Below are positions 37,434-45,326 of a stretch of DNA of 64,000 bases, in pieces; position 1 is the first letter of the stretch, and each line of letters starts with the position of its first letter. The notes under the pieces were generated by a model, which made no database searches, was not told the DNA's origin, and worked only from the letters and a program-made list of their open reading frames with translations. Origin of the DNA: Sphingomonas nostoxanthinifaciens (GTDB lineage Bacteria; Pseudomonadota; Alphaproteobacteria; Sphingomonadales; Sphingomonadaceae); contig NZ_CP082839.1 of assembly GCF_019930585.1 (NCBI RefSeq), forward strand, positions 3,096,001 to 3,160,000. The letters run 5' to 3'. Made by a program: the position numbers and the translations under genes.

Positions 37434-39356
37434 ATGTCCGAACGTCCCTCTACCCCGCTGCTCGATACCGTGCCGACGCCGCAGGCGCTGCGCAAGGTGA
37501 AGCCGGAGCAGCTCCGCCAGGTGGCGGACGAGCTGCGCGCCGAGATGATCTCAGCGGTCTCGGTCACTGGCGGCCATCTCGGCGCCGGGCTCGGCGTGGT
37601 CGAGCTGACGGTGGCGCTGCATTATGTGTTCAACACGCCCGAGGACGTGTTGATCTGGGACGTCGGCCACCAGGCCTATCCCCACAAGATTCTCACCGGC
37701 CGCCGCGACCGCATCCGCACGCTGCGCCAGGGCAAGGGCCTGTCGGGCTTTACCCGGCGCGGCGAGAGCGAGTTCGACCCGTTCGGCGCGGCGCATTCGT
37801 CCACGTCGATCTCGGCGGCGCTCGGCTTCGCGATGGCGAACAAGCTGGCGGGCAAGCCCGGCAAGGCGATCGCGGTGATCGGCGACGGCGCGATGTCGGC
37901 CGGCATGGCCTATGAGGCGATGAACAATGCCGAGGCGGCGGGTGAGCGCCTGATCGTCATCCTCAACGACAACGACATGTCGATCGCGCCGCCGGTGGGC
38001 GGCCTGTCGGCCTATCTGGCGTGGCTGGTCTCGTCCAAGCCGTTCCTCAGCCTGCGCGAAGTGGTGAAGCGGCTCGCCCGCCACCTGCCGCGCCCGCTGC
38101 ACGAGGCGGCCAAGCGTGGCGAGGAATATGCGCGCGGCATGGCAATGGGCGGCACGTTGTTCGAGCAGCTCGGTTTCTATTATGTCGGCCCGATCGACGG
38201 CCACAATCTCGATCACCTGATCCCGGTGCTGGAGAATGTGCGCGACGCGGCCGAGGGGCCGTGCCTGATCCACGTCGTCACCAAGAAGGGCAAGGGCTAC
38301 GCACCCGCCGAATCCGCCGCCGACAAATATCATGGCGTCCAGAAGTTCGACGTGATCTCGGGCGTGCAGGCCAAGGCGCCGCCGGGGCCGCCCGCCTATC
38401 AGAACGTGTTCGCGCAGCAGCTCGTCAAGGAGGCTGAGGCCGACGATCGCGTCGTCGCGATCACCGCGGCGATGCCGTCGGGCACCGGCCTCGACAAGTT
38501 CCAGAAGGCGTTCCCCGACCGCACTTTCGACGTCGGCATCGCCGAGCAACACGCGGTCACCTTTGCCGCCGGCCTCGCCGCGCAGGGGATGAAGCCGTTC
38601 TGCGCGATCTACTCGACCTTCCTGCAGCGCGCCTACGATCAGGTGGTGCACGACGTCGCCATCCAGAATCTGCCGGTGCGCTTCGCGATGGATCGCGCCG
38701 GGCTGGTCGGCGCGGACGGCGCGACTCACGCCGGATCGTTCGACATCGCCTATCTCGCCACCCTGCCCAACATGGTGGTGATGGCGGCGGCGGACGAGGC
38801 CGAGCTGACCCACATGGTCCACACCATGACCGCCTATGACGACGGCCCGAGCGCGGTGCGCTATCCGCGCGGCAACGGCACCGGCATCGGCATTCCCGAA
38901 ACGCCGCAGCTGCTGGAGATCGGCAAGGGACGGATGGTGCGCGAGGGCAAGGCCGTCGCGATCCTGTCGCTCGGTACGCGGCTGGAGGAGGCGCTCAAGG
39001 CCGCCGACCAGCTCGATGCGATGGGCCTGTCGACCTCGGTCGCCGACCTGCGCTTCGCCAAACCGCTGGACGAGGCGCTGATCCGCCGCCTGCTGACGAC
39101 GCACGACGTCGCGATCACGGTCGAGGAAGGCGCCGTCGGCGGCTTCGGCGCGCATGTGCTGACGCTCGCCTCGGACGAGGGGCTGATCGACGCGGGCCTC
39201 AAGCTGCGCACGCTGCGCCTGCCCGATCGCTTCCAGGATCATGACAAGCCCGAGCTGCAATATGCGGAGGCCGGTCTCGATGCGGAGTCGATGGTGGCGA
39301 CGGTGCGCGCGGCGCTCCAGCGCAATTCCCCGGTTGGGCTGGGCATCGCCGGGTGA
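37434..39356 (+). CDS. dxs: 1-deoxy-D-xylulose-5-phosphate synthase
   Basis: A 640-residue thiamine-diphosphate enzyme that starts the MEP isoprenoid pathway by joining pyruvate and glyceraldehyde-3-phosphate. Key marks are [39 protein letters not shown], the TPP motif [38 protein letters not shown], and in the transketolase domain [20 protein letters not shown]. It feeds hopanoids, quinones and carotenoids. Its stop overlaps the next gene's GTG by four bases. It is the head of an operon with a DUF2141 protein and hpnN. Confidence 0.98.
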
Positions 39357-39787
39357 TCCTGTCCGCATTGCCGGCAGTGATGGCGCTGCTGGCCACGTCG
39401 AGCGTCGCCGCTGCGCCGTCGACCGGCTCGATCACCGTCACCGTCGCGGGCGTCCGCTCCGCCGACGGGCTGATCCATGTCGACGTCTGCCCGCAGGCGA
39501 ATTTCCTCCACGCCTGCCCGTGGTCGGCGACGGCGCCGGCACAGCGCGGCAGCGTCTCGGTCACGTTGCACGGCATTCCGGCCGGCCGCTATGCGGTGCA
39601 GGCGTTCCAGGATGCCAACGCCAATGGCGATCTCGATCGCGGCATGTTCGGCATCCCGAAGGAAGGCATCGGTTTCTCCAACGATGCCATGAACAAGCTC
39701 AAGAAACCGACCTTCGCCGTGGCGGCGTTCGATCACGGCACCGAGACGCAGACCATTCCGGTGCTGCTGCGCTACTTCCTCGATTGA
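39353..39787 (+). CDS. DUF2141 secreted protein
   Basis: A 144-residue protein starting with GTG, which overlaps the dxs stop (GTGA). A signal peptide [20 protein letters not shown] is followed by a DUF2141 domain: [52 protein letters not shown]. The [11 protein letters not shown] stretch resembles a calcium-binding loop. It is periplasmic. In sphingomonads this family is often next to hpnN, as here, so a link to hopanoid or membrane biology is plausible but unproven. Confidence 0.88.
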
Positions 39788-39791
39788 ACGC

Positions 39792-43193: not shown

Positions 43194-44177
43194 ATGCACG
43201 GAACGATCGTCGCGGCGGGAGAAAATCCGGTGAAACTCATCCTCGCTCAGCCGCGTGGCTTTTGCGCCGGCGTCGTCCGTGCCATCGACACGGTGGACCG
43301 CGCGCTCGATCGCGTCGGCGCGCCGGTCTATGTGCGCCACGAGATCGTCCACAACCGCCACGTGGTCGACACGCTGAAGGCCAAGGGCGCCATCTTCGTC
43401 GAGGAGCTGGACGAGGTGCCGACCGGCGCCGTCACCGTCTTCTCCGCGCACGGCGTCAGCCGCGAGGTGCAGAAGAATGCCGAGGCGCGCGGCCTGCCCG
43501 TGCTCGACGCAACCTGCCCGCTCGTCAGCAAGGTTCACGCGCAGGGCCGGCGCTACGTCGCCAGCGGTCGTGCCTTGGTGATGATCGGCCATGCCGGCCA
43601 TCCCGAGGTGGAGGGCACGCTCGGCCAGATCGACGGGCCGATCCATCTGGTCGCGACGGTCGAGGATGTCGCCGCGCTCGACATGCCGGACGATGCGCAG
43701 GTCGCCTACATAACCCAGACGACGCTGTCGGTCGACGACACGCGCGACATCATCGAAGCGCTGAAGACGCGCTTCACCGATCTGGTCGGCCCCGGCACCG
43801 CCGACATCTGCTACGCGACGCAGAACCGCCAGAATGCGGTGCGCGATCTGTGTGCGGCGGCGGACCTGCTGCTCGTCGTCGGCTCCGCCAACAGCTCCAA
43901 TTCGAACCGCCTGCGCGAGATCGGCGTGGAGATGGGCAAGCCGTCCTATCTGGTCGCCGACGGCTCGGCGATCGACCCGATCTGGCTCGAGGGAGTCGAG
44001 ACGGTCGGCCTCACCGCCGGCGCCTCTGCCCCCGAGGAATTGGTGCAGAGCGTCATCGCCGCCATCGCCGCGCTTCGCCCGATCACGGTCGAGACGCTCG
44101 ATGGCATTGAAGAGAAGCTACAATTCCGCCTGCCACCGGCGCTGAACCGGCTGGCCCCGCGAACCGAAGCGGCCTAG
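43194..44177 (+). CDS. ispH: 4-hydroxy-3-methylbut-2-enyl diphosphate reductase
   Basis: A 327-residue iron-sulfur enzyme that makes IPP and DMAPP at the end of the MEP pathway. The three cluster cysteines lie in [12 protein letters not shown] (Cys24), [12 protein letters not shown] and [22 protein letters not shown] and [11 protein letters not shown] follow. A good ribosome site (GAAGAGGAAG) precedes ATG 43194; a downstream GTG at 43230 could be an alternative. It ends 12 bases before hpnH, so both are probably cotranscribed. Confidence 0.97.
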
Positions 44178-44189
44178 GAGCGCTCCCTT

Positions 44190-45326
44190 ATGGGTATTCC
44201 AATGAGTCAGGTGGCGCGGATCGGCGCCTATATCGTCGGCAAGCATGTGAAAGGCGTCGAGCGTTATCCGCTCGTGCTGATGCTGGAGCCGTTGTTCCGC
44301 TGCAATCTCGCCTGCAAGGGCTGCGGCAAGATCGATTATCCCGATTCGATCCTCAACCAGCGCCTGTCCTACGAACAGTGCATGCAGGCGATCGACGAGT
44401 GCGGCGCGCCGGTGGTGTCGATCGCGGGCGGCGAGCCCCTGCTCCACCGCGACATGCCGAAGATCGTGCAGGGCTATCTGGATCGCAAGAAGTTCGTGAT
44501 CCTGTGCACCAACGCGCTGCTGCTGAAGAAGAAGATCGATCAGTACAAGCCGAACCCCGGCTTCACCTGGTCGATCCACCTCGACGGCGATCTGGGCATG
44601 CACGACAAGGCGGTCAGCCAGGACGGCGTGTACGAGGTCGCGGTCGAGGCGATCAAGCTCGCCAAGTCCAAGGGCTTCCGCGTCTCGATCAACACCACTT
44701 TGTTCAACGACGCCGATCCGGAGCGGGCGGCGAAGTTCTTCGACGACGTGACCGCGCTGGGCCTCGACGGCATCACCGTGTCGCCGGGCTACAGCTACGA
44801 GCGCGCGCCCGATCAGGACAGCTTCCTCAACCGCACCCGCACCAAGGAGCTGTTCCGCGGCATCCTCGCGCGCGGCAATGGCGGCAAGAAGTGGCCGTTC
44901 AGCCAGTCGACCCAGTTCCTCAACTTCCTGGCGGGCAACGAGGCCTATGCCTGCACGCCGTGGGGCAACCCGACGCGCACCGTCTTCGGCTGGCAGAAGC
45001 CCTGCTACCTGCTCGGCGAAGGCTATGTCGATACCTATCAGGAGCTGATGGAATCGACCGCGTGGGACGATTACGGCGTCGGCAATTACGAGAAGTGCCA
45101 GGACTGCATGGTCCATTCGGGCTTCGAGGCGACCGCGGTGATGGATACCGTGCGCCACCCGATCAAGGCGGCGCTGGTCGCGCTGCGCGGCGTCGACACG
45201 CAGAAGCCGATGGTCGAGGATATCAGCCTCGCCAATCAGCGGCGCGCGAAGGATGTATTCAACCTGAATGTCGAACATCAGCTTTCGCACATGAAGAAGG
45301 CCGGAAATCGCGTCGAGGTTCATTGA
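44190..45326 (+). CDS. hpnH: adenosyl-hopene transferase HpnH (radical SAM)
   Basis: A 378-residue radical SAM enzyme. The [4Fe-4S] motif CNLACKGC gives Cys38, Cys42 and Cys45; VVSIAGGEPLLHRDMP binds SAM; a C-terminal SPASM-like/cap region carries several cysteines, including ACTPWGNP, KPCYLL and KCQDCMVHSGFEAT. It adds 5'-deoxyadenosine to diploptene, the first step of the extended hopanoid side chain. AGGAG lies nine bases before the ATG. The cyclase shc and hpnG are not in the window. Confidence 0.97.
   Translation: MGIPMSQVARIGAYIVGKHVKGVERYPLVLMLEPLFRCNLACKGCGKIDYPDSILNQRLSYEQCMQAIDECGAPVVSIAGGEPLLHRDMPKIVQGYLDRKKFVILCTNALLLKKKIDQYKPNPGFTWSIHLDGDLGMHDKAVSQDGVYEVAVEAIKLAKSKGFRVSINTTLFNDADPERAAKFFDDVTALGLDGITVSPGYSYERAPDQDSFLNRTRTKELFRGILARGNGGKKWPFSQSTQFLNFLAGNEAYACTPWGNPTRTVFGWQKPCYLLGEGYVDTYQELMESTAWDDYGVGNYEKCQDCMVHSGFEATAVMDTVRHPIKAALVALRGVDTQKPMVEDISLANQRRAKDVFNLNVEHQLSHMKKAGNRVEVH

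Follow-up and report, generated by a model that had tools for sequence, protein, structure and literature searches.

A split hopanoid gene island in Sphingomonas nostoxanthinifaciens, with a hopanoid-linked lineage of IspH and an apparently native dxs

Introduction

Why should genes of isoprenoid supply lie among genes for the modification and export of hopanoids? The question is raised by a window of 64,000 nucleotides from Sphingomonas nostoxanthinifaciens (G000:C1:3096001-3160000; G000 is the genome, a single contig of 4.30 Mb, and the other G and L labels denote the genomes and loci compared), in which two genes of the methylerythritol phosphate (MEP) pathway, dxs and ispH, are interleaved with the hopanoid genes hpnN, hpnM and hpnH. 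Of their products, HpnH attaches an adenosyl side chain to hopene, while outward movement of hopanoids is the work of HpnN. The gene order suggests that hopanoid output may be tied to MEP expression, as proposed in a sequence-only reading of this DNA. We consider it likely that the stretch is half of an alphaproteobacterial hopanoid island, split in this genome, and that it carries an IspH of a hopanoid-linked lineage together with the native dxs, which fronts a DUF2141 gene and hpnN. The separate lineage of IspH linked to hopanoid genes is the part that merits closer attention. PMC12583986 also treats the functions of HpnH and HpnN.

The island and its split

Family assignments were made with NCBIfam (TIGR/NF) and Pfam models, comparing each bit score with the cut-off of the model. 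Scores and coordinates bear out the gene list of the sequence-only reading, namely dxs, DUF2141, hpnN, hpnM on the minus strand, ispH and hpnH (Table 1); HpnN scores 1016 bits against the newer model NF052374, under its cut-off of 1100. The translational chaining claimed for dxs, DUF2141 and hpnN takes the form of a GTG start of DUF2141 that overlaps the TGA of dxs, followed by only 4 nt before hpnN, and ispH, described as joined to hpnH, is 12 nt away from it.

The cyclase and the early hpn genes had been expected elsewhere in the genome, with a search for shc, hpnC-E and hpnG suggested as a check. All were located ∼115 kb upstream, in a block within G000 3015249-3028395. Its minus strand carries hpnG, shc, hpnE, hpnD, hpnC, hpnB and hpnA, and its plus strand hpnI, hpnJ, hpnK and hpnL, with an unnamed gene between hpnK and hpnL. 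The cyclase domain was found at 3015947-3016912, upstream of the window, and shc scores 742 bits against TIGR01507 (cut-off 431). Genes of this block, hpnC, hpnD and hpnE included, exceed their NCBIfam cut-offs, the exceptions being HpnG, whose best model is TIGR03468 (174 bits, cut-off 187), and the unnamed gene. The island is not contiguous in G000, where 105 kb separate hpnL from dxs and 118 kb separate hpnG from dxs. Because shc and other hpn genes are present in the genome, hopanoid production by this strain is likely; in cultivated alphaproteobacterial strains the presence of the genes went with hopanoid production in all cases, according to the accessible text of PMC12583986.

To place this arrangement among related loci, 249 genomes of the family were searched. 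Of these, 26 have HpnN (E ≤1e-100; 20 above the cut-off of the family model) and 27 have HpnH (E ≤1e-80). Loci were read around hpnN or hpnH in the positive genomes and in 80 of a larger number of named contigs with HpnN, with the window proteins mapped by tblastn; seven loci with identical hpnN were dropped from the order counts, and pairs were counted only where both genes lie near each other. The common order is (dxs)-DUF2141-hpnN> <hpnM ispH-hpnH> <hpnG-shc-hpnE-D-C-B-A hpnI-J-K-L>. Where hpnN and hpnM lie within 6 kb, they are on opposite strands in 56/59 loci and on the same strand in three (L106, L012 and L015), in which the hpnN block is rearranged. This count does not confirm the earlier claim that the two genes usually run in the same direction and that hpnM has been turned around here; an inversion of hpnM as a special event is rejected, opposite orientation being the rule.

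The hpnM and ispH genes diverge in 60/60 loci, and ispH stands directly before hpnH in 63 of the 64 loci that have both, five further loci having hpnH and room beside it without ispH. In 50 of the 59 loci with both genes hpnH faces hpnG within 600 bp; seven loci, the window included, have room beside hpnH without hpnG. Contiguity of the island is common, not required, and the less usual feature of this locus is the break after hpnH, not the orientation of hpnM. We conclude that the locus is a known kind of island, split in this genome, in which the reversed hpnM is normal.

Upstream of hpnN, across 100 loci, both DUF2141 and dxs were found in 30, DUF2141 only in 26, dxs only in 6 and neither in 29, with 9 undecidable at a contig edge; dxs is thus beside hpnN in 36/100.

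Two side observations concern these loci. In L013 (G246) and L027 (G013) several hpn or ispH genes are in two pieces in different frames, representing either broken genes or sequencing errors. An ispB-like gene lies beside hpnM in L126, L134, L141, L152 and L153 (mostly labelled Caulobacterales or Alphaproteobacteria), with dxs also present in L126 and L134; islands of this kind thus repeatedly include a third prenyl gene.

Two lineages of IspH

The two ispH copies of G000, that of the island and one at G000:C1:453509-454345, encode products that are only 54% identical. Two ispH matches occur in 16/27 hpnH-positive family genomes as against 10/219 hpnH-negative genomes with any match (three genomes have none). 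Two of the 16, G013 and G246, have a broken island ispH and may be miscounted; omitting both alters little. Where there is a single match, it is the island that holds it in G005, G006, G030, G114, G174 and G219, and it lies away from hpnH in G035, G045, G117, G144 and G221.

For phylogenetic analysis IspH sequences were labelled by position alone, as linked when encoded beside hpnH or hpnM and as unlinked otherwise; hits no longer than 780 bases, sequences containing stops and duplicate rows were dropped (160 to 148 in the first tree). In the 148-sequence tree one branch divides 87 linked from 61 unlinked sequences, with a support of 98 in the Shimodaira-Hasegawa-like approximate likelihood-ratio test (SH-aLRT). 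A tree of 174 rows places 91 linked and 64 unlinked alphaproteobacterial sequences each on one side of a branch (SH-aLRT 100), with 19 sequences from outside the class between them, and the number of changes that the position labels require on it is the minimum possible. An 81-row tree under a mixture model, from which one long-branched row was omitted, gives an ultrafast bootstrap of 100 for the linked and for the unlinked group. Recent duplication as the source of the island ispH is rejected on the grounds of the 54% identity and the separate lineages in the trees.

The conserved cysteines and polar residues are shared by both lineages. Cys24, Cys108, Cys206, His49, His86, His133, His136 and Glu138 are identical in 174/174 sequences; these conserved cysteines and active-site residues are assigned their roles by analogy with Escherichia coli IspH. 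By family score and conserved residues the product of the window gene is IspH (LytB), with predicted reductase activity. Six positions are conserved at 80% or more in each lineage and distinguish the two, none being an obvious catalytic change. NCBIfam has several IspH models, and because the two G000 copies prefer different ones, part of the division is already implicit in existing models. Keyword searches of the open-access literature, with subscription literature outside their scope, found no paper on two IspH lineages or on a hopanoid-linked second IspH.

The pairing of ispH with hpnH extends beyond the family. HpnH was found in 42/142 genomes of the class, and ispH is directly upstream of hpnH in 24 of the best 30 class loci. 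In a phylum sample HpnH was found in 23/200 genomes; besides the window, and within short flanks, ispH is beside hpnH in 6/15 class loci and 0/8 loci from outside the class (L194 and L198 from this sample were examined together with the class loci). The pair is therefore frequent, not universal, in the class, and was not seen outside it in our sample. Both models were run on 41 class genomes; not counting that of the window, 11 have hpnH, and in 10 of those ispH is adjacent. Six of the 10 (G254, G257, G258, G261, G276 and G288) have no other ispH match, although with completeness of 93%, 93% and 77% for G257, G258 and G261 a missed ispH is possible in these three. Since some hopanoid bacteria have the island type only, it can probably carry the whole isoprenoid supply.

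An apparently native dxs in front of hpnN

The dxs gene is single in G000. Its pairing with an upstream fur gene is shared with G001 and G002, both of which are without hpnN and hpnH. It is also shared with G003, where the island lies elsewhere and dxs has no hpn genes beside it; identities alone place the Dxs of the window at 86% to G001 and 62–82% to the others. Because the fur-dxs pair is common to these genomes and the protein is nearest that of G001, dxs looks native to the genus. The same two observations lead us to reject the alternative that it is an island-borne copy in G000. Being single and apparently native, while ispH is doubled and of a distinct lineage, dxs has had a different history from ispH. 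No second dxs, dxs remnant or convincing neighbour gene of the G002 or G003 dxs was found in the 472 kb of G000 examined, and recombination between two dxs copies as the cause of the split would be a guess.

Elsewhere, contig ends hint at second copies. Of the 80 named contigs, 21 break off at the tail of a dxs linked to hpnN: 15 with a last dxs piece of at most ∼240 bp (tblastn), four with a dxs-like tail recognised by eye (L081, L084, L086 and L098), and the remaining two (L115 and L123) at the start of DUF2141. The binomial probability of so many ends in the dxs tail is ∼2e-23, on the assumptions, not exactly true, that ends are spread evenly across 10 kb and that the loci are independent.

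The clearest case is Sphingomonas formosensis (G017), where both ends of contig C19 (L295 and L315) enter the 5′ region of dxs. The last 121 bp are identical, the ends are in opposite orientation, and the sequence before the shared 121 bp is unrelated. A dxs stretch is also present at L014 1-176, L014 being the contig of the S. formosensis locus L095. Since both C19 ends run into the dxs 5′ region with differing upstream sequence, S. formosensis has two dxs genes. Of the 76 G017 contig ends 73 were examined; 20 of these, from ten small contigs, seemingly consist of N, and the remainder showed no 3′ end of a second dxs. By inference, two near-identical dxs copies may lie behind other contig breaks as well.

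This bears on genome annotation, in that dxs may go missing from draft sphingomonad genomes where two near-identical copies collapse. Sphingomonas mali is reported, in the accessible part of PMC12583986, to be without dxs. Contig L084 (1-120) of S. mali NBRC 15500, however, apparently opens within the final dxs codons and continues into DUF2141 and hpnN; the absence is therefore doubtful and probably an assembly artefact.

DUF2141, the inverted repeat and neighbouring features

Two cysteines are invariant among the 40 DUF2141 sequences compared, and an acidic stretch, D-x-N-x-N-x-x-x-D, is largely conserved. The structure model is a confident β-rich fold (predicted local distance difference test score 92.4), for which no convincing relative was found in the PDB; the best match, an adhesin, has an E-value of 7e-4 and a template modelling (TM) score of 0.35 to the query, and CBM20 domains reach TM scores of 0.42–0.48.

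A repeat had been noted between hpnN and hpnM, and an inverted repeat is indeed present between their converging stop codons. Its arms of 21 bp each, identified by eye, lie at 42365-42385 and 42421-42441, and a second, looser pair is found at 32875-32946. The core of the repeat has four matches in the window compared with 0.08 expected from shuffles. It occurs eight times with up to three mismatches in 472,219 examined bases of G000, one palindromic place being counted on both strands, and for that reason the repeat is not considered abundant in the genome.

Table 1. Features of the locus, in window positions, with the basis of each assignment.
Feature	Position	Strand	Basis
Fur-family regulator gene, upstream neighbour of dxs, not a hopanoid gene	36814..37290	+	Pfam FUR, above cut-off
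dxs	37434..39356	+	TIGR00204, 792 bits (cut-off 466); sole match in G000
DUF2141 gene, predicted secreted β-rich protein	39353..39787	+	PF09912, 92 bits (cut-off 24); signal peptide by eye
hpnN, hopanoid resistance-nodulation-division (RND) transporter	39792..42350	+	TIGR03480, 986 bits (cut-off 752)
Inverted repeat amid converging hpnN and hpnM	42365..42441	.	By eye, plus core matches
hpnM, MlaC-like periplasmic protein	42454..43026	-	TIGR03481, 163.0 bits (cut-off 160.1); PF05494
ispH of the hopanoid-linked lineage; the genome has a second ispH	43194..44177	+	TIGR00216, 314 bits (cut-off 188); trees
hpnH, adenosyl-hopene transferase (radical S-adenosylmethionine)	44190..45326	+	TIGR03470, 522 bits (cut-off 225)

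Beyond hpnH, at window 45513-45893, is a small gene of the UrcA family, in the position of hpnG in most relatives. The closest relatives of the window HpnN, IspH and Dxs are in the Sphingomonadaceae. The island is apparently a mosaic: HpnH is closest to that of G006 and G185 (82 and 80%), and IspH and HpnN are closest to those of another genus (G048 and G227). The HpnG of this genome (L002 9250-9909) is 65–70% identical to that of G003, G005, G006 and G144, and mostly 38–47% to the remainder.

Weighing the explanations

The association between MEP and hopanoid genes is real and recurrent; it is strongest for ispH-hpnH, and the adjacency of dxs to hpnN is optional. How the likely half-island might work can be outlined from gene content and order. 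Its ispH encodes the last MEP enzyme, in a lineage that accompanies hpnH in many alphaproteobacteria and is distinct from the housekeeping IspH, and its dxs the first, being the genus's own copy with DUF2141 and hpnN placed right behind it. If ispH-hpnH and dxs-DUF2141-hpnN are each transcribed together, as their spacing suggests, the last enzyme would precede hpnH and the first would precede DUF2141-hpnN, such that one transcript could supply the precursor and use or export the product. Co-transcription may then raise isoprenoid supply or match it to hopanoid demand. HpnM, and perhaps the DUF2141 protein, would act in the periplasm, and in some lineages the island IspH may have replaced the housekeeping enzyme.

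Several observations weigh against this interpretation. Ten hpnH-negative family genomes have two ispH matches (G014, G066, G076, G078, G086, G090, G172, G189, G202 and G205). No ispH is seen beside hpnH in the outside-class loci, in 9/15 class loci of the phylum sample or in 6/30 loci of the class sample, and dxs is absent beside hpnN despite room for it in 55/100 loci. In G001, with neither hpnN nor hpnH, a DUF2141 gene (L167 8653-9093) overlaps the end of dxs in the same way. This gene may be left over from an island since lost, or it may indicate that DUF2141 has no hopanoid specificity; because DUF2141 still follows dxs in this hopanoid-free genome, it may not be a hopanoid protein. Finally, in Zymomonas mobilis exposed to ethanol, ispH and hpnH are reported to go up and dxs, hpnM and hpnN down, in the accessible part of PMC3495753.

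A fuller history can be offered, which we think possible but rather unlikely. The island IspH would be a dedicated lineage, not a recent duplicate of the housekeeping gene. Having arrived as part of the island, it would have taken the place of the housekeeping IspH more than once, leaving the whole isoprenoid supply of such bacteria on a gene of the hopanoid operon. Many sphingomonad islands would also carry a second dxs, kept near-identical to the native one by gene conversion, and recombination at dxs would have broken the island apart here and brought one half next to the native fur-dxs pair.

The competing account of the IspH lineages that we take most seriously, while still thinking it somewhat less probable than its negation, is an old duplication that occurred within the Alphaproteobacteria or predates them, with differential loss and a hopanoid link gained once, and neither transfer nor displacement. 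One branch for each group, separated by sequences of other classes, fits duplication as well as it fits import; gain and loss together with an island more readily accounts for the patchy co-presence of linked ispH and hpnH within the family, although this is not decisive.

A different proposal, which goes beyond our favoured explanation and may hold together with it, is that the dxs-DUF2141-hpnN and ispH-hpnH operons serve to make MEP flux follow hopanoid output. The genes overlap or are only 4–12 nt apart, ispH-hpnH recurs and dxs is upstream of hpnN in 36 of the 100 loci counted above. The logic, though not evidence for this case, has a precedent in the isotuberculosinol operon, for which the authors propose raised flux (PMC3470408, as far as accessible). 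The sole dxs must, however, serve all isoprenoids, its position varies among loci, and in Z. mobilis ispH and hpnH respond to ethanol in the opposite sense to dxs and hpnN; we regard such coupling as possible but rather unlikely.

Mere neighbourhood, in which housekeeping MEP genes flank hopanoid genes by chance and without a hopanoid role, is quite possible for dxs alone, since relatives that lack hopanoid genes have fur-dxs as the native arrangement, and in G001 fur-dxs-DUF2141 occurs in the absence of hpnN and hpnH, but is improbable for the locus as a whole, as ispH-hpnH adjacency recurs and the hpnH-linked ispH is a separate lineage that usually occurs beside another ispH in genomes of the family.

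If the island does carry a separate IspH able to take over, an essential enzyme of primary metabolism would be exchanged along with a secondary lipid pathway. Gain and loss of hopanoids would then be bound to essential isoprenoid supply, which would bear on the patchy distribution of hopanoids among sphingomonads.

Comparison with known systems

Among the closest parallels to the likely half-island are Sphingomonas and Novosphingobium islands (such as L093, L121 and L119), which share dxs-DUF2141-hpnN, the opposed hpnM and ispH-hpnH; unlike the window, most run on into hpnG-shc-hpnE. Z. mobilis also has both blocks, dxs-hpnN and hpnM/ispH/hpnH, as seen from the consecutive tags ZMO1598 (dxs) and ZMO1599 (hpnN), and ZMO0874 (hpnH), ZMO0875 (ispH) and ZMO0876 (hpnM), given in the accessible part of PMC3495753, and from the Zymomonas loci L139, L021 and L022. 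In the Zymomonas-like g25 genomes the two blocks are apart, hpnH still adjoins hpnG-shc and no DUF2141 was found, whereas in the window both blocks are joined and it is hpnG-shc that lies apart.

Outside the class, ispH is reported beside hpnH in Acidobacteria (PMC5462960) and in an Acidihalobacter (PMC9062700); going by the published descriptions, as far as accessible, these clusters resemble the present island in uniting ispH with hpnH and shc. The isotuberculosinol operon of Mycobacterium tuberculosis, described in PMC3470408, likewise makes a specialised terpenoid and includes both an additional, active LytB (LytB1, an IspH of its own) and a gene resembling dxs that is dead, in an organism that has a housekeeping IspH besides. 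It differs in product and organism, and in that its dxs-like gene is an inactive extra; G000 shares with it the extra ispH and has no extra dxs, the dxs of the hopanoid locus being the only copy.

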